A stretch of 64,000 bases of DNA, taken from assembly GCF_000519265.1 (NCBI RefSeq), contig NZ_KI912608.1, positions 199,665 to 263,664 of the forward strand. Reading direction: 5' to 3'. Shown in pieces: positions 31,881 through 48,507 of this stretch (within the stretch, counting starts at the first letter, position 1; each line of letters starts with the position of its first letter). The notes below the pieces were generated by a model. It was not told where the DNA came from. It ran no database searches and saw only the letters and a program-made list of their open reading frames with translations. A program made the translations under genes and the position numbers. The DNA comes from Desulfonatronum lacustre DSM 10312. GTDB taxonomy: Bacteria > Desulfobacterota > Desulfovibrionia > Desulfovibrionales > Desulfonatronaceae.

Positions 31881-31987
31881 TTCTTTATTGTTCTGGTTTC
31901 AAGGAAGCCTTGATTACCGAAAGGAAGCGGATCCCTCGAGATTTGCCGCAGGGATATATCTGTTCACCCTCAACACAAGGAGATGCC

Positions 31988-34900
31988 ATGCAGATCAGCA
32001 GAAGGAACTTCATGAAGTTTTCGGCCGTAGCCGGTTCGGCCCTGGCCTTCGGCGGTCTGGGATTCAATCTCAGACCCGCCGTGGCCAAGGCTGAATTGTC
32101 GAAATTGCGGGACGCCAAGGAGACAACCTCGGTCTGTTGCTACTGTTCCGTGGGCTGTGGCCTGATCGTCCACACAGCCCTTGGCGGGAAGGGGCGGACC
32201 GTCAACGTGGAAGGGGATCCGGACCATCCCATCAGTGAAGGCTCGCTGTGCGCCAAGGGGGCCTCGGTCTACCAATTGGCCGAGAACGAGAACCGGGTGA
32301 CCAAGGTGCTCTACCGTGCGCCCTATGGCGACAAATGGGAGGAAAAATCCTGGGATTGGGCCATTGACCGAATCGCCCGGAAGGTCAAGGAGGCCAGGGA
32401 CCAGACTTTCGTGACGAGCAATGCCCAGGGGCAGGTGGTCAACCGTACGGACGGGATCGCCCATGTGGGGTCAGCGGCTCTGGATACCGAGGAGTGCTGG
32501 TACCTCCAGGGCCTGATGCGCAGCCTGGGGCTGGTGTACATCGAGCATCAGGCCAGATTGTGCCACAGCTCCAGCGTGCCGTCCCTGGCAGAGTCTTTTG
32601 GTCGCGGGGCCATGACCAACCACTACAACGACCTGATGAACAGCGACTGCATTTTGATGATGGGCGGGAATCCGGCGGAATGTCACCCGGTTTCCTTCAA
32701 ATGGATCATGAAGGCCAAGGAGCGGGGCGCGACGCTGATCAGCGTGGATCCGCGCTTCAACCGGACCTCCAGCAAGGCCGACATCTACGCCCCGATGCGC
32801 TCCGGTACGGACATTCCCTTTCTGGGGGGGATGATCAAGTATATCCTGGACAATGAAATGTATTTCAAGGACTACGTGGTCAACTACACCAACGGCGCCT
32901 TCCTGGTGAACCCGGAATTCGGCTTTGACGACGGGCTGTTCACAGGCTGGGATCCAGAGAAAAACGCCTACGACAAGTCGACCTGGACCTATCAGTTGGA
33001 CGACAAGGGCGTGCCCAAGCGCGACCTGTCTTTGAAGGACAAGAATTGCGTGTTCCAACTGCTCAGGAAGCACTACGACCGGTACACCCTGGACCGGGTC
33101 TCTGAGACCACCGGCACGCCCAAGGACAAGTTGCTGGAAGTCTACAAGGTGTATTCGGCAACAGGAAAACCGGACAAGTCCGGGACCAACACCTATGCCA
33201 TGGGCTGGACCCAGCACACCATCGCGGTCCAGTTGATCCGGACCATGGCCATGATCCAGCTCCTGCTGGGCAACGTGGGCAACGCCGGCGGCGGAGTGAA
33301 CGCCCTGCGTGGCGAGGCCAATGTCCAGGGCTCCACGGACAGCGCTTTGCTCTATCACATCATCCCGGCCTACAATCCCGCTCCCCGGGCGGTCTGGCCC
33401 ACGTTGGCCGATTACAACAAGGCTAACACTCCCGTCAGTCACGATCCCAAGAGCGCCAACTGGTGGCAGAACCGGCCCAAGTACATCGCCAGCCTGCTCA
33501 AGGCCATGTATCCGGACAAGACGCCCGAGGAGAGCTACAACTACATGCCCCGGCTGGACGTGGGCCAGAACTGTTCCTGGCTGGTGATGTTCGACCATAT
33601 GCTGCAAGGCAAGTTCAAAGGCCTGTTCGCCTGGGGCATGAACCCGGCCGTCAGCGGCGCGCACTCCAATAAGACCAGGGAGGCCATGACCAAGCTGGAC
33701 TGGCTGGTCAACGTGAACATCTTCCGGAACGAGACCGGCTCATTTTGGCACGGCCCGGGCATGGACCCCGCCAAGGTCAAGACCGAAGTCTTCATGCTTC
33801 CGGCCGCAGTGTTCTATGAAAAGGAAGGCTCCATCACCAATTCCGGGCGCTGGGCCCAGTGGCGCCATGCCGGTCCCGAGCCGTTGGGAGAGAGCAAGGC
33901 CGACGGGGACATGATGGTCATGCTGCTCAAGCGGTTGAAGGAACTCTACCAGGAGGAAGGAGGCGCGTTTCCCGATCCCGTAGCCGGTTTCACCCTGGAC
34001 GCCGTGGTCACGGACGGCAGGTTCGATCCGGTCAAGATGGCCAAGCTGCACAACGGCTACTTCCTCACCGACAAGAAGATCGGAGACGTGACCTACAAGG
34101 CCGGGACCCAGGTCCCCGGCTTCGCGCTGCTTCAGGACGACGGCTCCACGGCCTGCGCCAACTGGCTGTACTGCGGGTCCTTCACCGAGGCCGGAAACCT
34201 GATGGCCCGCCGCGACAAGACCCAAACCGAGATGCAGGCCAACATCGGTCTGTTCCCCAACTGGGCCTGGGCCTGGCCGGTCAACCGACGGGTCCTGTAC
34301 AATCGGGCTTCCGTGGACCAGCAGGGGATGCCATTTGCCCCGCAAAAAGCGGTCATCAAATGGGAGCAGGGCAAGTGGGTCGGCGACGTACCCGACGGCC
34401 CCTGGGCTCCTTCGGAGAGACACCCCTTCATCATGACCACCGAGGGCTTCGGTCGTCTTTTTGGACCGGGTCTGGTGGATGGACCGTTCCCGGAACACTA
34501 CGAGCCCCTGGAATGTCCCTTTGAAACGCAACCGTTCTCCAGTCAGCTGCATAATCCCACGGCTCTGCACTTTTCCGGGCCATTGGAGAAGCGGGCCGTG
34601 TGTGATCCGCGCTATCCGTTCGTTGGAACCACGTATCGGGTCACCGAGCATTGGCAGACCGGGGTCATGACCCGATGGACCCCATGGCTTCTGGAATGTC
34701 AGCCCCAGATGTTCGCGGAGATCGATCCGGAACTGGCCAGGCTCCGGGGCATCGCCAACGGGGACAAGGTGATCGTGGAGAGCATCCGTGGCCAGGTGGA
34801 GTGCGTGGCCATCGTCACCCCCCGGCTGAAACCCTACAAGGTCATGGGACAAAGCCTGCATATGGTCGGCGTGCCCTGGCACTACGGCTGGGTGCATCCC

Positions 34901-35005
34901 AAGGACGGCGGGGACGCGGCGAACCTGCTGACTCCGGCCGTGGGCGATCCGAACACCGGTATTCCGGAGACCAAGGCGTTCATGGTCAACATCCGCAAGG
35001 CATAG
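31988..35005 (+). CDS. fdhA: Formate dehydrogenase catalytic subunit (periplasmic, Cys-containing)
   Basis: A 1005-aa molybdenum/tungsten enzyme that oxidises formate to CO2. The Tat signal SRRNFMKF at the N-terminus predicts export folded with its partner. A [4Fe-4S] cluster is bound by CCYCSVGCGL and a later Cys in GSLCAKG. The metal ligand is Cys192 (TGC codon at 32561) in RLCHSSSVPSLAESFGRG, where many sulfate-reducer homologues have selenocysteine. The C-terminal molybdopterin-binding domain includes VTEHWQTGVMTRWTPWLLECQP. AAGGAGA supports the ATG at 31988. The beta subunit follows after a 112-bp repeat element. No cytochrome subunit is encoded nearby, so the two-subunit FdhAB type is likely, passing electrons to periplasmic cytochrome c3. 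Confidence 0.94.
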   Translation: MQISRRNFMKFSAVAGSALAFGGLGFNLRPAVAKAELSKLRDAKETTSVCCYCSVGCGLIVHTALGGKGRTVNVEGDPDHPISEGSLCAKGASVYQLAENENRVTKVLYRAPYGDKWEEKSWDWAIDRIARKVKEARDQTFVTSNAQGQVVNRTDGIAHVGSAALDTEECWYLQGLMRSLGLVYIEHQARLCHSSSVPSLAESFGRGAMTNHYNDLMNSDCILMMGGNPAECHPVSFKWIMKAKERGATLISVDPRFNRTSSKADIYAPMRSGTDIPFLGGMIKYILDNEMYFKDYVVNYTNGAFLVNPEFGFDDGLFTGWDPEKNAYDKSTWTYQLDDKGVPKRDLSLKDKNCVFQLLRKHYDRYTLDRVSETTGTPKDKLLEVYKVYSATGKPDKSGTNTYAMGWTQHTIAVQLIRTMAMIQLLLGNVGNAGGGVNALRGEANVQGSTDSALLYHIIPAYNPAPRAVWPTLADYNKANTPVSHDPKSANWWQNRPKYIASLLKAMYPDKTPEESYNYMPRLDVGQNCSWLVMFDHMLQGKFKGLFAWGMNPAVSGAHSNKTREAMTKLDWLVNVNIFRNETGSFWHGPGMDPAKVKTEVFMLPAAVFYEKEGSITNSGRWAQWRHAGPEPLGESKADGDMMVMLLKRLKELYQEEGGAFPDPVAGFTLDAVVTDGRFDPVKMAKLHNGYFLTDKKIGDVTYKAGTQVPGFALLQDDGSTACANWLYCGSFTEAGNLMARRDKTQTEMQANIGLFPNWAWAWPVNRRVLYNRASVDQQGMPFAPQKAVIKWEQGKWVGDVPDGPWAPSERHPFIMTTEGFGRLFGPGLVDGPFPEHYEPLECPFETQPFSSQLHNPTALHFSGPLEKRAVCDPRYPFVGTTYRVTEHWQTGVMTRWTPWLLECQPQMFAEIDPELARLRGIANGDKVIVESIRGQVECVAIVTPRLKPYKVMGQSLHMVGVPWHYGWVHPKDGGDAANLLTPAVGDPNTGIPETKAFMVNIRKA

Positions 35006-41518: not shown

Positions 41519-42595
41519 ATGCGCATTGAGTTGAATCAGATCGGCAAGCTCTTCAAGAGCGCTGTGGCTCTGGACGATATCACTTTTACCGTTGAATCCG
41601 GGGAGTTGGTGGTGATTCTCGGGCCGTCCGGGTGCGGAAAGTCGACCTTGCTGCGAATCATTGCCGGCCTGGACGACGCCAGTTCGGGGATGGTGCGGAT
41701 CGGCGAGCAGGACGTGACCAGACTGTCTCCGGATCGCCGCGGCATTTCCATGGTCTTTCAATCCTACGCCCTGTTTCCACACCTGAGCGTCGCGGAGAAT
41801 ATCGTCTTTGGGCTGCGCATCCGGAGGCGGAGCAAGGCCGAGATCCAGAAACGGCTGAACCATGCCGCGGTCATGCTGGGACTTGAAACCCTGCTGGACC
41901 GCAAGCCGGCTCAGCTTTCCGGAGGCCAGCGCCAGCGGGTGGCCCTGGGACGGGCCATCGTCTCGCAGAAGCCGATCTGCCTGATGGACGAGCCCCTTTC
42001 TAATCTGGACGCCAAGCTGCGCCATGAAATGCGCCGGGAGATCCTGGAACTGCAACGCGAGCTGCGCCTGACCATGGTTTATGTGACCCATGACCAGGTG
42101 GAGGCCATGACCATGGCCGATCGCATCGTGCTCCTGGATCATGGCCGCGTGGCCCAGATTTCCTCGCCGGCGGATCTCTATGCCCGGCCCTCCAGCTTGT
42201 TCGCGGCCCAGTTCATCGGGTCACCGCCGATGAACATGCTGGCCCTGGAACCCTTCGGCGAGGGCTGCGCGCTTGCGGGAGGTGAGAGGCTGATCGTCCG
42301 GGGCGGGTGCGAGCCGTTGTTTCTTGGGGTTCGCCCGGAGGACGTCCGCCCGGCTGAGGATGGAATACCCGGCCTAGTCACCCGAACGGAGTATCATGGC
42401 GCGGACACCCTGGTCGCCGCCCGAGTGAGCGGGCAGGAGGTGGTCATGCGTTTGTACGGCAAGCACGACTATCAGGCCGGAGATGCGATCCACGTGATTT
42501 GGGACCGGGAAAGCAGCCACCTTTTCAGCGCGGAGAACGGGGAGCGTCTCGAAGGACTGGAGCCTCGGCTCGTGCTCCCGGAAATCGCCCGCTGA
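41519..42595 (+). CDS. ugpC: ABC transporter ATP-binding protein (UgpC/MalK type)
   Basis: A 358-aa ATPase with Walker A GPSGCGKSTLLR, Q-loop VFQSYALFPH, signature LSGGQRQRVALGRA, Walker B CLMDEPLSNLD and a C-terminal TOBE-type regulatory domain (LGVRPEDVRPAE). This is the CUT1 layout used for glycerol-3-phosphate, maltose and related sugars. It is the first gene of a four-gene operon. The Pho-box-like site upstream favours import of glycerol-3-phosphate or glycerophosphodiesters, but the ligand is not proven. Confidence 0.88.
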   Translation: MRIELNQIGKLFKSAVALDDITFTVESGELVVILGPSGCGKSTLLRIIAGLDDASSGMVRIGEQDVTRLSPDRRGISMVFQSYALFPHLSVAENIVFGLRIRRRSKAEIQKRLNHAAVMLGLETLLDRKPAQLSGGQRQRVALGRAIVSQKPICLMDEPLSNLDAKLRHEMRREILELQRELRLTMVYVTHDQVEAMTMADRIVLLDHGRVAQISSPADLYARPSSLFAAQFIGSPPMNMLALEPFGEGCALAGGERLIVRGGCEPLFLGVRPEDVRPAEDGIPGLVTRTEYHGADTLVAARVSGQEVVMRLYGKHDYQAGDAIHVIWDRESSHLFSAENGERLEGLEPRLVLPEIAR

Positions 42596-42681
42596 GCGAT
42601 GACGGGGCGGACTAAAGGTCGAATGTCCAGGGGCATCTTTTCGGCCTCTTTATCCTGAAACCAGAAACAAGGAGAGTTTGC

Positions 42682-43962
42682 ATGCGCCTTATCGCGACCG
42701 CCGTGGTTTTCTGCCTGCTGCTCATGACGAGCACGTCTGCTCTGGCCCAGAACGTCAATCTGACCATGTATTACCCCGTGGCCGTGGGTGGCCCGATCAC
42801 CAAGATCATCGACGAGATGATCGCCGATTTCCAAAAGGACAATCCGGGGATCACGGTCCAGGCCGTGTACGCCGGGAACTACGACGACACGCGGACCAAG
42901 GCCCTGGCCGCGCTGAACGCCGGAGAGCCGGTGCAGCTTTCCGTGCTGTTTTCCATCGACGTTTTCGATCTGATGGATCAGGACGTGATCGTGCCTTTTG
43001 ACGATCTGGTCGCCACCGATGAGGAGCGCGAGTGGCTGCGAAGCTTTTATCCCGCGCTGATGCAGAACAGCACGGTGGACGGGAAGGTGTACGGCATCCC
43101 GTTCCAGCGCTCGACCATTGTGATGTACTACAACAAGGACGCGTTCCGGGATGCCGGACTGGACCCGGAGAGCCCGCCGGCCACTTGGGACGAAATGGTC
43201 CAGGCTTCGAAAAAGCTGACCAAACGCGACGCTTCGGGCAACGTGACCCAGTGGGGCGTGCACGTCCCGTCCTCGGGATATCCCTATTGGATGTTTCAGG
43301 CCTTTGCCATGCAGAACAACCAGGTGTTGATGTCCGGTGACGGCACCGAGGTCTACTTTGATCATCCGGCTGTGGTGGAAAGTCTGGAGTTTTGGCGCGA
43401 CCTGTCCCATGCCCACGACGTCATGCCCAGGGGCGTGATCGACTGGGGAACGCTGCGCCAGAAATTCCTGGAGGGCAGCACGGCCATGATGTGGCACACC
43501 ACCGGCAACCTGACTCCTGTCCGCAACGAGGCCCGTTTTGATTTTGGAGTGGCCATGCTCCCGGCCAAACAGCGCCGCGGCAGCCCCACGGGCGGCGGCA
43601 ATTTTTACGTGTTCAAAAACGCCAGCGCCGAGGAGCAGAAGGCGGCTTTGCAATTCATCCGTTGGATGACCTCCCCGGAGCGGGCCGCGGACTGGTCCAT
43701 CGCCACCGGGTACGTGGGTGTTCGCCAGGACGCTTACGCCACCCCAGCGTTGTCCGAGTACGTGGAAGGTTTTTCGGCGGCGGCCGTAGCCCGGGATCAA
43801 CTGGAGTACGCCACCGCGGAGTTCTCCACCTTTGAGACGGCCCGGGTGAAGAAGTTCCTGGACGACGCCATACAGTCGGTGCTCACCGGGCAGGCCCAGC
43901 CAGCCCAGGCTCTGCAAGGCGCCCAGGCCGCGGCTGAGCGCGTGTTGCGCGCGTACAAATAG
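42682..43962 (+). CDS. ugpB: Extracellular solute-binding protein (UgpB type)
   Basis: A 426-aa periplasmic protein with a signal peptide (FCLLLMTSTSALAQ). The mature N-terminus LTMYYPVAVGGPITKIIDEMIADFQ and the later ERGKNN-like WSIATGYVGVRQDAY region match the family 1 binding proteins of CUT1 transporters, such as UgpB. GRWEIV-like aromatic positions cannot be matched to a ligand by eye. The ribosome-binding site AAGGAG lies before ATG 42682. It follows ugpC after 86 bp. Confidence 0.87.
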   Translation: MRLIATAVVFCLLLMTSTSALAQNVNLTMYYPVAVGGPITKIIDEMIADFQKDNPGITVQAVYAGNYDDTRTKALAALNAGEPVQLSVLFSIDVFDLMDQDVIVPFDDLVATDEEREWLRSFYPALMQNSTVDGKVYGIPFQRSTIVMYYNKDAFRDAGLDPESPPATWDEMVQASKKLTKRDASGNVTQWGVHVPSSGYPYWMFQAFAMQNNQVLMSGDGTEVYFDHPAVVESLEFWRDLSHAHDVMPRGVIDWGTLRQKFLEGSTAMMWHTTGNLTPVRNEARFDFGVAMLPAKQRRGSPTGGGNFYVFKNASAEEQKAALQFIRWMTSPERAADWSIATGYVGVRQDAYATPALSEYVEGFSAAAVARDQLEYATAEFSTFETARVKKFLDDAIQSVLTGQAQPAQALQGAQAAAERVLRAYK

Positions 43963-44051
43963 ATGCAGTTTGATGGTCCGCCCCGGTCCGGTACTTCGGA
44001 TCGGGGCGATTCCATCGCAACGGTTTTCTCTTCTTCTTTGCGGCGCGAGGG

Positions 44052-44933
44052 GTGACGGTGGTTCGCGTTTCCAATCAAGTGTACGGATGGCTGCTTTTTT
44101 TTCCGGCGGCGGTGATGTTTTTTCTCTTCACCCACTACCCCATCCTGGCCACCCTGAAGGCCAGCTTTTTCTCCACGCCGCGCGGTGCCCGTCCGGCCAG
44201 GTTCGTGGGTCTGGAAAACTACCGGGTAATGTTTGACGACCCGGTTTTTTGGAAGGTCCTGGGCAACAACTTCATCTTTGCCGCCGGAACCATTCCGCTG
44301 AGTATCGGCCTGGCCCTGCTGATGGCCGTCTGGGTCAACGGCAAGCTGTCCGGCCGCAGCATCGTGCGCACCGCGTACTTCACACCCACTGTGCTGCCCA
44401 TGATCGCCGTGGCCAACATCTGGCTCTTTTTTTACACCCCGCAGATCGGTCTGCTGGACGGCTTGACCGGGCTGCTCGGTTTTCCCAGCCGCAACTGGCT
44501 GGGTGAACCGTCCACCGTGATGAGCTGTTTGATCGTGATGACCATCTGGAAGGAGGCCGGCTTTTTCATGATCTTCTATCTGGCCGCGCTCCAGTCCATC
44601 TCTCCGGAACTGCAAGACGCCGGGCGGATCGAGGGGGCCGGCAGGTGGTACTTCTTCCGCCGGGTGACCTGGCCGCTGTTGATGCCCACCACGGTGTTCA
44701 TTCTCTTTAATGCTGTAATCAACGCCTTCAAGCTGGTGGACCACCTGTTCATCATGACCAAGGGCGGCCCGAACAACGCCTCTTCGCTGCTACTGTACTA
44801 CATCTATGAAGTGGCCTTTTCCTTCTGGGATACCGCCTACGCCTCCACCCTGACCATGGCTCTGCTGGCCGTCCTGGCCGTTTTGGCCCTCAGCCAGTTC
44901 GTGTACCTTGAACGGCGGACCCACTACCAATGA
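44052..44933 (+). CDS. ugpA: ABC transporter permease (UgpA type)
   Basis: A 293-aa inner-membrane permease with six hydrophobic helices. It has LFFPAAVMFFLFTHYPIL at the N-terminus and the EAA loop in EAGFFMIFYLAALQSISPELQDAGRIEGAG near residue 175, the interface with the ATPase. FxGLENYRVMF-like ARFVGLENYRVMFDDPVF is typical of UgpA/MalF permeases. The 3' end overlaps ugpE by 4 bp. Confidence 0.9.
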   Translation: MTVVRVSNQVYGWLLFFPAAVMFFLFTHYPILATLKASFFSTPRGARPARFVGLENYRVMFDDPVFWKVLGNNFIFAAGTIPLSIGLALLMAVWVNGKLSGRSIVRTAYFTPTVLPMIAVANIWLFFYTPQIGLLDGLTGLLGFPSRNWLGEPSTVMSCLIVMTIWKEAGFFMIFYLAALQSISPELQDAGRIEGAGRWYFFRRVTWPLLMPTTVFILFNAVINAFKLVDHLFIMTKGGPNNASSLLLYYIYEVAFSFWDTAYASTLTMALLAVLAVLALSQFVYLERRTHYQ

Positions 44934-45745
44934 TTTCCGCTAAAATTTCCCACTACCTGGAAAGTTTCGGAGCCTGGCTCCTGGCCCTGATCTGGGCCGG
45001 GCCGCTGCTGTACGCGGCCTGGGCCGCTTTTCACCCTCCGGCGTACATCGCCAATTTCGATCTGTTCGCGCCGTTGACCCTGGACAATTTCCGCACGGCC
45101 TGGAACACCGCTCCCTTTGCCCGCTACTTCCTGAATTCCTTCGCCTACGTGAGCATGACCCTGGCCGGGCAGTTCGTCTTGTGCACCCTGGCCGCCTTTG
45201 CCTTTGCCCGGTTTTCGTTTCCCGGGCGGGACATCGCCTTCATGCTGGTCCTGGTGCAGCTGATGATCATGCCGGACCAATTGATCGTAAAGAATTACGA
45301 ACTGATGAGCCGCCTGAATCTGGTGGACACCACCACGGCCATTTCCCTGCCCTACATGGCCTCGGCCTTCGGCACCTTCCTGCTGCGTCAGACCTTCAAG
45401 CAGATCCCCAGGGAGCTGGAGGAAGCGGCCCGGGTGGAGGGCGCGGGCTGGCTGCGGGTGCTCTGGAAAGTCTACGTCCCCCTGGGCAAGCCCACCTACA
45501 TCGCCTACGGCCTCGTCTCGGTGAGTCACCACTGGAACAACTTTCTCTGGCCCCTGGTGATTACCAACTCCGTGAACACCAGACCCCTGACCGTGGGGCT
45601 GGCCATTTTCGGCGCACCCGAATCCGGCGTGAACTTCGCGATCATCACCGCCGGAACATTGATCGCCGTTGCCCCGCTGCTCATCGCCTTCCTGCTGTTC
45701 CAGCGCCAGTTCGTGCAGAGCTTCATGCGCTCGGGCATCAAGTGA
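44930..45745 (+). CDS. ugpE: ABC transporter permease (UgpE type)
   Basis: A 271-aa inner-membrane permease with six hydrophobic helices. The EAA loop is in RQTFKQIPRELEEAARVEGAG near residue 155, and the motif HHWNNFLWPLVI follows, both typical of the second CUT1 permease. The start overlaps the ugpA stop (ATGA), so translation is coupled. It ends 53 bp before the convergent molybdopterin oxidoreductase gene. Confidence 0.9.
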   Translation: MISAKISHYLESFGAWLLALIWAGPLLYAAWAAFHPPAYIANFDLFAPLTLDNFRTAWNTAPFARYFLNSFAYVSMTLAGQFVLCTLAAFAFARFSFPGRDIAFMLVLVQLMIMPDQLIVKNYELMSRLNLVDTTTAISLPYMASAFGTFLLRQTFKQIPRELEEAARVEGAGWLRVLWKVYVPLGKPTYIAYGLVSVSHHWNNFLWPLVITNSVNTRPLTVGLAIFGAPESGVNFAIITAGTLIAVAPLLIAFLLFQRQFVQSFMRSGIK

Positions 45746-45798: not shown

Positions 45799-48507
45799 TC
45801 ACCGGGGCTCCCGGCCCTTGCCGCGGAGCCGGAGCCATGCCTGGGCGGCCTTGTCGCAAAAAGTTGTCGCGTCGGCGAGGAGCAGGGGGAGGCGTCTGGA
45901 CAGGTCCGTATAATACGCATCAGGGAACTGGTCCTGGTAGGCGCGGTAGGCGGGAATGCCTCCCTGGCGAAACAATGTCAGCCAATCGGCGAGAATCGTT
46001 GAATCCGCCTCCAGGTGGAATTGAAAGCCGTACGAGGCGCGGCCGACCCGGAAGCACTGGTTGGGACACGTCTCCCCCTGGACAAGCAGGGTCGCGCCGG
46101 GGGGCAGGGTGAACGAGTCCTCGTGGAACTCCATCAAGGGAGGCAGGGGCAGGGCCGCGCTGATGACCGGATCGTCCTCGGCCGCCGGGGTTGGGTGGTG
46201 CTGAACGAATCCGAACTCCAGCCCGGAAAGGGTGTAGGTGGTTCCACCGTGGGCCCGGGCCAGCAGTTGCGCGCCCAGACAGATGCCGGCCACGGGCCGT
46301 TGCTTTGCCTCAAAGGTGCGCATCAGGTCCAGGAGCCGGGGGAAGTGCGGGGCCGATGCGTCGTCAAAGGCATGTTGCGGCCCGCCCAGGACCACGAGCC
46401 CGGCGAAGTCGTCCAGCTCTTTCGGCAGATCATCGCCGTCCATGGGACGCAGAGTGGTCACCCGTGCGCCCTGGCGCAGCAACGCCTTGACGAAGTTGCC
46501 CCCCGGTGCCAGGCGACTGTGCTCAATCACGAGGATACGGACATCCTGGACGTCTTCGGCGGGCCACGGAGCTATGGCGACACGTGTTTCGTAATAGGGG
46601 CAGCCGTCGCCGACCCGGCTGGCCATATCCCGGGTCAACTGGTTCAGGCCGTGCCCACCCTTGACCCACCCTCCCCGCTCGGCCACGAGAATGTCCTCAC
46701 GCATCCCAGAGGCTACGCTCAGACGAGCCTTGACCGCCCCGTACGGACTGAAGACCTTGACCATCCGTCCTTCTTCGAGCTCTAGCCTCGCGGCCTGACA
46801 CGTGGACAGAACGACTACGGGCAGCGGTTCATGGTCGGCCAGGGTTCGTTCGGAGCAGATGGCGTCATGGGGAGCGACGGTCAACAGGGTGTAGGGGAAT
46901 TCCGGAGTCTCCGGAGACGGGTCGGGATCGTCCAAATGTTTCAGGAAGCGGAACTTTCCGGACGGAGTCGGAAAGCGGCGGTCCGCGTAGGGAACCATGG
47001 GCGCGTTGACCCGGAAGGGGCGACTTCGCAGCGCCTGCAAGTCCCCTCCCTGATCCCGGAGTGGTGCGCAAAGGTCTTCCAACCAGGCTTCCAGATTGCG
47101 ACAATAGGCCTCGGCAAAGGGAAACCGTCGGGCCAGTTCCTGAAACATCCGGAATTCCGACCGGCACTCGCCCACCGGCTCAATGACCCTGTTCACCGCG
47201 CCGACGTAGTTGTGGCCGTAGCTGGCCATGACGTCCTGTTCTTCCAAAAACGTGGTCGCGGGGAGAAAGGCATGGGCGTGGTCCGCGGTGTCGTCCAGGA
47301 AGTGACCGCTGTAGACCACGAACTCGGTTTGGCGAAAGGCCCGGCTGACTTTGTCGCTGTTGGGCGCCATGCACACGGGGTTGGAAGCGGTGACGAAAAT
47401 CATCCGGATTTTCGGGTTCGTCGCGTTCAGAATCTCCTCCCCGATCCTGGGCATGAGCAGGGTCCGCCGAGGCGGATGCAGTCCATTTCCCCACAATCGC
47501 TGGTCATAGGGCCCGTACTCCTCGAACCCTTGACTGACGCCTCCTCCGGGAACGCCCAGGTTGCCGCTGAGCGCTCCCAGGGCGTCGATGGCCTGGATGG
47601 ACTGATGGGCCAAGGCGTGCCGGTGCAGGCCCCAGCCCAGGAGAATGGACGTGGGCTTGGACGTGATCAGGGTGTCGGCGAAAAGCCGGACCTGATCCTG
47701 ACCAACTCCGGCTTTTCGGCACAGTTCGTCCAGGCTGAAACCGCCCACCAGCTCCAAAAACGCCTCGCCTCCCTGGCTGCACTGCTCCAGGAATGTTTTG
47801 TCCTCGGCCCCGGCGGCCAGGATCAGCTTGGCCGCGGCCAGGGCCAGGAAGACGTCGCGGCCCGGCCGCACCGCGATATGGTGATCCGCCAGGGCCGCGG
47901 AACGGGTCCGGGCCGGGTCGACCAGCAGAATCGGCCCGCCTCGTCGGCGCAGATCCCGGATGATCGGGATCAAGCCGGCGTTGGTGGAAACCGGATTGCG
48001 GCCCCAGAGAATCATGGACCGACTGTTGGCGTGATCCAGCGGGTCATGGGAGACCCGGTCGCCGACACTGAGATTCTGGGCCGCCTGACCCGTCCCGCCG
48101 CAGAGAGAGCCGCGCGGGGTGGTCACGCCGCCCAGCAGGCTGAAGAAATAACGGTTGAGCAGCTTCAGGGCCGTGCGTTCTCCGTACCCTTGGTAGGAGA
48201 GGATGGCTTCCGGCCCGGATTCGGCGATCACGGTTTTGATCCGCTCGGCTACAAGGTCCAAGGCAGCGTCCCAGCTCACGATCTCCCAGCGGCCATCACG
48301 TCGGACCATCGGAGCCGTGACCCGTTCCGGACTGTAGACCCGCCGCACATACCGCGCCGTCTTGCCGCAGGCCGCCCCCCTGGTCAGCGGATGCTCGGGG
48401 TTCCCGCTCAACCGGACCAGGCGTCCGTTCTCCACGGTTGCCAAAAGCCCGCAGGTGCTGGGGCAGTCCCGGGTGCACGTCGTTGGGATGATTGTTTTCA
48501 TGGTCAT
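45799..48507 (-). CDS. Molybdopterin oxidoreductase fused to a class I glutamine amidotransferase domain
   Basis: A 902-aa fusion. The first about 660 residues form a molybdopterin enzyme of the DMSO-reductase superfamily: [4Fe-4S] ligands in CTRDCPSTCG and AACGKTARYVRR, a possible metal-ligand Cys in RGSLCGGTG, ILWGRNPVSTN and a C-terminal cofactor-binding domain (LLTVAPHDAICSERTL). No Tat or Sec signal is present, so it should be cytoplasmic. From about residue 675 comes a GATase1 domain: FAGLVVLGGPQHAFDD, nucleophile VAGICLGAQLLARAHGG and His-Glu pair YGFQFHLEAD, so the amidotransferase triad looks intact. The redox substrate is unknown. Start ATG 48507 has no clear ribosome-binding site; ATG 48501 is an alternative. 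Confidence 0.87.
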   Translation of the reverse strand: MTMKTIIPTTCTRDCPSTCGLLATVENGRLVRLSGNPEHPLTRGAACGKTARYVRRVYSPERVTAPMVRRDGRWEIVSWDAALDLVAERIKTVIAESGPEAILSYQGYGERTALKLLNRYFFSLLGGVTTPRGSLCGGTGQAAQNLSVGDRVSHDPLDHANSRSMILWGRNPVSTNAGLIPIIRDLRRRGGPILLVDPARTRSAALADHHIAVRPGRDVFLALAAAKLILAAGAEDKTFLEQCSQGGEAFLELVGGFSLDELCRKAGVGQDQVRLFADTLITSKPTSILLGWGLHRHALAHQSIQAIDALGALSGNLGVPGGGVSQGFEEYGPYDQRLWGNGLHPPRRTLLMPRIGEEILNATNPKIRMIFVTASNPVCMAPNSDKVSRAFRQTEFVVYSGHFLDDTADHAHAFLPATTFLEEQDVMASYGHNYVGAVNRVIEPVGECRSEFRMFQELARRFPFAEAYCRNLEAWLEDLCAPLRDQGGDLQALRSRPFRVNAPMVPYADRRFPTPSGKFRFLKHLDDPDPSPETPEFPYTLLTVAPHDAICSERTLADHEPLPVVVLSTCQAARLELEEGRMVKVFSPYGAVKARLSVASGMREDILVAERGGWVKGGHGLNQLTRDMASRVGDGCPYYETRVAIAPWPAEDVQDVRILVIEHSRLAPGGNFVKALLRQGARVTTLRPMDGDDLPKELDDFAGLVVLGGPQHAFDDASAPHFPRLLDLMRTFEAKQRPVAGICLGAQLLARAHGGTTYTLSGLEFGFVQHHPTPAAEDDPVISAALPLPPLMEFHEDSFTLPPGATLLVQGETCPNQCFRVGRASYGFQFHLEADSTILADWLTLFRQGGIPAYRAYQDQFPDAYYTDLSRRLPLLLADATTFCDKAAQAWLRLRGKGREPR

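Follow-up and report, generated by a model that had tools for sequence, protein, structure and literature searches.

A molybdopterin oxidoreductase fused in one protein to a class I glutamine amidotransferase (GATase) is encoded in the window (the whole 64,000-nucleotide stretch of DNA that was analysed), and in 17 of the 31 genomes that carry this fusion it is the terminal gene of a conserved cluster. By analogy with known systems, we tentatively place this two-domain enzyme in an amine pathway that works by gamma-glutamyl tagging, in which the GATase would remove the tag and the Mo/W domain would perform a redox or hydration step, a proposal whose chances we place slightly below even.

The fusion is read on the minus strand from the ATG at 48507 to a TGA stop as a single uninterrupted frame of 902 aa, in agreement with the original prediction, which had not given the strand. 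From aa 5 to 645 it is an enzyme of the DMSO reductase superfamily, and from aa 656 to 895 a class I GATase. The features are as follows:

45799 to 48507, minus strand: coding sequence of the 902-aa oxidoreductase-GATase fusion (ATG at 48507, stop at 45799; same protein in 31 genomes)
48331 to 48489, minus strand: [4Fe-4S] domain, aa 7-59, with Cys11/15/19/47 (Pfam PF04879 Molybdop_Fe4S4; Cys residues invariant in 27 relatives)
47128 to 48324, minus strand: molybdopterin oxidoreductase core, aa 62-460 (Pfam PF00384; AlphaFold model matches NapA and FdhH, Z about 35)
48100 to 48102, minus strand: Cys136, predicted Mo/W ligand (alignment to 7bkb; invariant in 27 relatives)
46591 to 46845, minus strand: molybdopterin dinucleotide-binding domain, aa 555-639 (Pfam PF01568 Molydop_binding)
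46543 to 46590, minus strand: interdomain linker, aa 640-655, variable among relatives (alignment)
45823 to 46542, minus strand: class I glutamine amidotransferase domain, aa 656-895 (Pfam PF00117 and fold match)
46279 to 46281, minus strand: GATase nucleophile Cys743 in GICLGAQ (motif, alignment of relatives)
46015 to 46017, minus strand: GATase His831 in FHLE (motif, alignment of relatives)
46009 to 46011, minus strand: GATase Glu833 in FHLE (motif, alignment of relatives)

The [4Fe-4S] motif (C11-x3-C15-x3-C19...C47) and the intact residues in GICLGAQ and FHLE bear out the sites noted originally. No Tat signal was seen at the N-terminus of the fusion (MTMKTIIPTTCTRDC), in line with the cytoplasmic location that had been predicted. 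All Pfam matches (aa 7-59, 62-460, 555-639, and 671-837 in the GATase) exceed their gathering scores, PF00117 with 43.5 bits against a cut-off of 22.8. The three domains and the fold place the first half in the DMSO reductase superfamily (Mo/W-bisPGD), its metal cofactor being predicted, and the Cys-His-Glu triad (C743/H831/E833) together with the GATase domain places the second among class I GATases. The partner of the GATase is the oxidoreductase and not a synthase domain of the kind found in GuaA, CarAB and others.

Neither half reached the cut-off of any NCBIfam equivalog. The closest models are formate dehydrogenase TIGR01591 for the oxidoreductase (221 bits, cut-off 666) and PRK07053 for the GATase (123 bits, cut-off 250). 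In the alignment to 7bkb, Cys136 is followed by Gly137, where formate dehydrogenases have His; identity as an FdhH-type formate dehydrogenase was rejected on the missing Cys/Sec-His pair and the missed TIGR01591 cut-off. In the AlphaFold model of the fusion (mean pLDDT 88, pTM 0.88), the oxidoreductase part matches NapA and FdhH at the Z value given above. Fold and cofactor domains are common to the fusion, E. coli FdhH and bacterial NapA, although identity is 20-22% and a GATase is absent from the latter two. The GATase part is nearest to 8khs (DnfC; Z 30.4, rmsd 2.0, 229 aa aligned, 29% identity), with 3m3p at Z 30.0, and plant gamma-glutamyl peptidase 1 is among the profile matches of the domain.

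Two other molybdopterin oxidoreductase frames were noted. The first, at window positions 31910-35005 (plus strand), encodes a second large enzyme, roughly 1,000 aa long. Its start is Tat-like, a CHSSS motif marks it as formate-dehydrogenase-like, and part of it matches the fusion at 29% identity. The second lies outside the window (G000:C1:2380857-2381564) and contains one in-frame TGA, possibly for selenocysteine.

A domain search across genomes, proposed with the original prediction as a check, covered 247 Desulfovibrionales genomes, with the oxidoreductase called at E <= 1e-100. The oxidoreductase is present in 59 of them and fused in 31. Since the same head-to-tail protein occurs in 31 genomes, at 57-89% identity, the fusion is neither chance nor an assembly error, and an assembly or frame artefact was ruled out. 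Recent joining of two neighbour genes in the window genome (one contig, 3.76 Mb; a close MAG relative is 86% identical) was likewise ruled out, the fusion being common to many genera. Among the matches listed in a GATase-only search of 395 genomes of the phylum, frames of fused length came only from Desulfovibrionales, and stand-alone GATase relatives are common in the phylum.

The final oxidoreductase tree excludes outgroup rows containing stops, which gave very long branches. All fused copies fall within one supported clade, where the g13 clade and G507, two lineages with an unfused oxidoreductase, are nested among them. The simplest history suggested by this tree is one fusion event, then two losses of the GATase domain. 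The orthologues that lack the GATase in these two lineages, or that have a dead triad (G487, G566, G612), stand at 62-67% identity, and the outgroup, also without a GATase, is 45-54% identical. Near the unfused copies neither a GATase remnant nor a separate GATase gene was found, the latter being an arrangement named originally as speaking against the prediction.

Several relatives deserve separate mention. Plasmid records held only unfused ones, near 30% identity over the oxidoreductase. The 660 aa that extend the N-terminus of the G494 relative are an antisense reading of a sensor kinase and were rejected as a fusion. Genome G561 carries both the fused form (L090, 65% identity) and an unfused relative (L113, 54%). 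In genus g263 (L118, L119, L125) the unfused relative adjoins nifHDK, and a gene for a PAS sensor kinase lies just upstream; cut-offs for nifD, nifK and nifH were passed beside it in L118. In genus g276 (L112, L113, L114, L115, L117) a CobW-type GTPase gene, a call backed by Pfam in L112, lies within about 125 bases after the unfused relative.

Analysis of genome context, also suggested at the outset, revealed the cluster mentioned above. Its order is GS-like ligase, C45 hydrolase, Tat-type binding protein, two permeases, two ATPases, radical SAM protein and, last, the fusion. Upstream on the opposite strand lies a sensor kinase gene, usually accompanied by one for a sigma-54 response regulator; a scan for sigma-54 -24/-12 elements before the ligase gene gave no score above shuffles. 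Ligase and C45 genes occur in the same 17 of the 247 genomes, all of which have the fusion, and the radical SAM gene occurs in those 17 and as a fragment in G594. Within the order, ligase, C45 and radical SAM genes are therefore all-or-none and never found without the fusion, the fragment aside. This fragment (L077, 1009-1446) is the C-terminal half of the radical SAM gene next to an intact fused gene, and the locus reads as the cluster caught in decay. A search of the open-access literature yielded no paper that describes the cluster or links GATase integrity to it, and the cluster is apparently undescribed.

The fusion stands without the cluster in the remaining 14 of the 31 genomes, that of the window included. 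None of the ligase, C45, radical SAM and binding-protein genes of the cluster was found anywhere in the window genome, which, judged from its sequence, has lost the cluster. An ABC operon convergent with the fusion (window 41519-45745, plus strand) encodes a UgpC-like ATPase, a UgpB-like binding protein and two permeases. It was rejected as the cluster importer, its genes being only 26-40% identical to the cluster ABC genes and its binding protein UgpB-like. ABC genes are likewise convergent with the fusion gene in G005 (L087).

Outside the order, genome G272 has ligase (55%), C45 (49%) and radical SAM (40%) genes together, with an unfused oxidoreductase (45%) nearby; no GATase relative was found in it. 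Because the set occurs there with an unfused oxidoreductase, the association of the four may predate the fusion, and because no GATase relative was found, the GATase seems not to be essential to the core set. Two dynamin-like GTPase genes lie between the radical SAM and oxidoreductase genes of this genome (L140, 6912-10746, minus strand).

Among solved structures, the operon ligase best matches NpaA1 (8wwu; 8wwv/8x6z), scoring 203 bits where the next GS scores 187, which puts it nearer to GoaS than to GS by a modest margin. NpaA1 is a ligase joining glutamate to aromatic amines (PMC11335346). Where GS has the Glu of its YEAP motif, each of the ten aligned operon ligases has Phe (SFAP or TFAP). 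An Asp is still present opposite Asp50', which is reported lost in GoaS enzymes (PMC11335346), and a GoaS label for the ligase is therefore tentative. The cluster binding protein shows weak likeness to sugar-binding proteins. A Rieske dioxygenase is absent among the conserved cluster members, and by this measure the cluster is not an AtdA-type aniline system.

The radical SAM protein has a CxxxCxxC motif and eight further invariant cysteines, and its model resembles SPASM/RiPP maturases (SuiB Z 17.8, SkfB 16.9) and anSME. This resemblance, and the inclusion of penicillin acyltransferase in the C45 family, would suit a biosynthetic cluster, in which a radical SAM/SPASM maturase, the ligase and a C45 acyltransferase would make a peptide or small metabolite, or alter one, and the fusion would remove gamma-glutamyl or amide groups from it. 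We consider this unlikely, however, since viperin and BlsE folds score about as well as the SPASM maturases, the genes around radical SAM are tightly packed and, judged by spacing, leave little room for a precursor peptide, and an importer (Tat-type binding protein, permeases) is encoded.

In the gamma-glutamyl-tagging pathway that we prefer, the ABC importer of the ancestral cluster setting would bring in a nitrogen compound, the C45 hydrolase may release an acyl group or pass it on, and the GS-like ligase would join glutamate to the amine. The Mo/W domain would then act on the tagged compound by a redox reaction or a hydration. The fused GATase would use a thioester at Cys743, together with His831/Glu833, to cleave the gamma-glutamyl amide, and this hydrolysis would release the product or recycle unused tagged substrate; the fusion would hold tag removal next to the redox site. 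We infer tag removal from the NpaA1-like ligase, the GAT-like hydrolysis in aniline and naphthylamine systems and the activity of DnfC, and the gamma-glutamyl substrate, the order of steps and any part played by the radical SAM protein are likewise inferred. Since the other cluster genes are gone from the window genome, the fused enzyme there would have to use another or residual gamma-glutamyl or glutamine substrate. Free glutamine may also serve the GATase, the family being close to ordinary glutaminases.

Three options had been raised originally for the GATase domain: hydrolysis of a glutamyl or related substrate, release of ammonia for a reductive amination, and lost glutaminase activity. 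The first is the best supported, its ancestral neighbour being a ligase of the gamma-glutamyl-organic-amine type and its nearest characterised fold DnfC, and the other two are weaker for the window copy. Our best reading of the domain is thus a putative gamma-glutamyl-amide hydrolase tied to a redox step, as in the AtdA/NpaA and Dnf systems. If this is true, the tagging logic of aerobic aniline, naphthylamine and ammonia oxidation would also exist in anaerobes with a molybdenum enzyme, and the reading points to a defined cluster for a substrate hunt.

The full triad is present in 28 of the 31 fused copies, comprising all 17 cluster copies and 11 of the 14 orphans. In the other three, Arg replaces Cys and Gly replaces Glu (G487), Ser replaces Cys (G566), and Arg replaces His (G612). 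Triad loss in these genomes and whole-domain loss (g13 clade, G507) are all found without the cluster. Counting unfused clade members as decayed, 17 copies are intact and 0 decayed where the cluster is present, as against 10 intact and 9 decayed where it is absent (Fisher p = 0.0012 on 36 tree rows, ignoring kinship). About four or five separate decay events are indicated, all without the cluster; kinship-independent pairs number 3 for and 0 against, too few for significance. This natural series of intact, decayed and lost domains allows a comparative test of the domain role.

In most pairs the dN/dS of the GATase domain is 0.08-0.35. Between the window copy and that of the nearest relative, G005, both from genomes without the cluster, it is 0.12, against 0.09 for the oxidoreductase. 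Because the value is this low though the cluster is absent, the window GATase looks constrained by purifying selection and not a relic. Furthermore, the tree has ten intact copies, the window's included, whose genomes lack the ligase, which means that the GATase is of some use beyond the cluster. Lost glutaminase activity is not indicated for the window copy by its triad and dN/dS, and is likely in G487, G566 and G612; since this is so, the decayed triads named originally as contrary evidence do occur, in a few lineages.

Class I GATases usually feed a synthase. Following this rule, the domain would hydrolyse glutamine and channel ammonia to the molybdenum site for reductive amination, and the intact triad and the good confidence with which both domains are modelled agree with such a role. 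We find it improbable, and less likely than gamma-glutamyl-amide hydrolysis, since the oxidoreductase is kept without a GATase in the g13 clade, G507 and the outgroup, and with a dead triad in G487, G566 and G612, which weakens the original suggestion of ammonia release. In addition, we know of no reductive amination by a Mo/W-bisPGD enzyme. There is also little to recommend a chance joining, by which the domain would be a glutaminase or gamma-glutamyl peptidase of general function, unrelated to the oxidoreductase reaction: stand-alone relatives are common and the domain persists in genomes without the ligase, but many genera retain the fused form, and within the order no cluster lacks it. That the domain is a scaffold or regulatory element with dispensable catalysis is very improbable, for although three relatives keep the whole domain minus a catalytic residue (G487 minus both Cys and Glu), the triad is intact in every cluster copy, dN/dS is low in most pairs, and decayed copies are all in lineages without the cluster.

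The gamma-glutamyl-tagging reading can be set beside known systems. The original prediction held a redox partner to be unexpected for an amidotransferase, which was overstated, as AtdA2 and DnfC act beside oxygenases and a fusion with such a partner was tabulated in 2018. In that survey of molybdenum use, DMSOR-GuaA1 (COG0518) forms a table row among new fusions of the DMSOR family (PMC6147048). The fusion itself is therefore not new; the tabulated one joins the same two domain types in one protein and is likely the present family. The survey passages on DMSOR-GuaA1 name no organism, cluster or function (PMC6147048).

In the Dirammox system of Alcaligenes (DnfABC), DnfC, for which both glutamine and gamma-glutamyl hydroxamate are substrates of hydrolysis (PMC11440038), also acts beside a redox enzyme. 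However, the Dirammox genes are separate, the oxidase is an aerobic di-iron enzyme and the cell's GlnA serves in place of a dedicated ligase, whereas here the two domains are fused. Closer in its ligase is the aniline/1-naphthylamine type (AtdA1-A5 / NpaA1-A5), in which the gamma-glutamyl amine formed by a GS-like ligase is the substrate both of a redox enzyme and of hydrolysis by a GAT-like enzyme (PMC11335346). It is possible, if rather doubtful, that sulfate reducers have a new oxygen-independent amine pathway of this kind, with a Mo/W enzyme replacing the oxygenase and redox step and tag removal fused. The redox partner in AtdA/NpaA is an O2-using Rieske dioxygenase, whereas here it is an oxygen-independent type of Mo/W enzyme, with the GATase fused to it and with C45, radical SAM and importer genes alongside.
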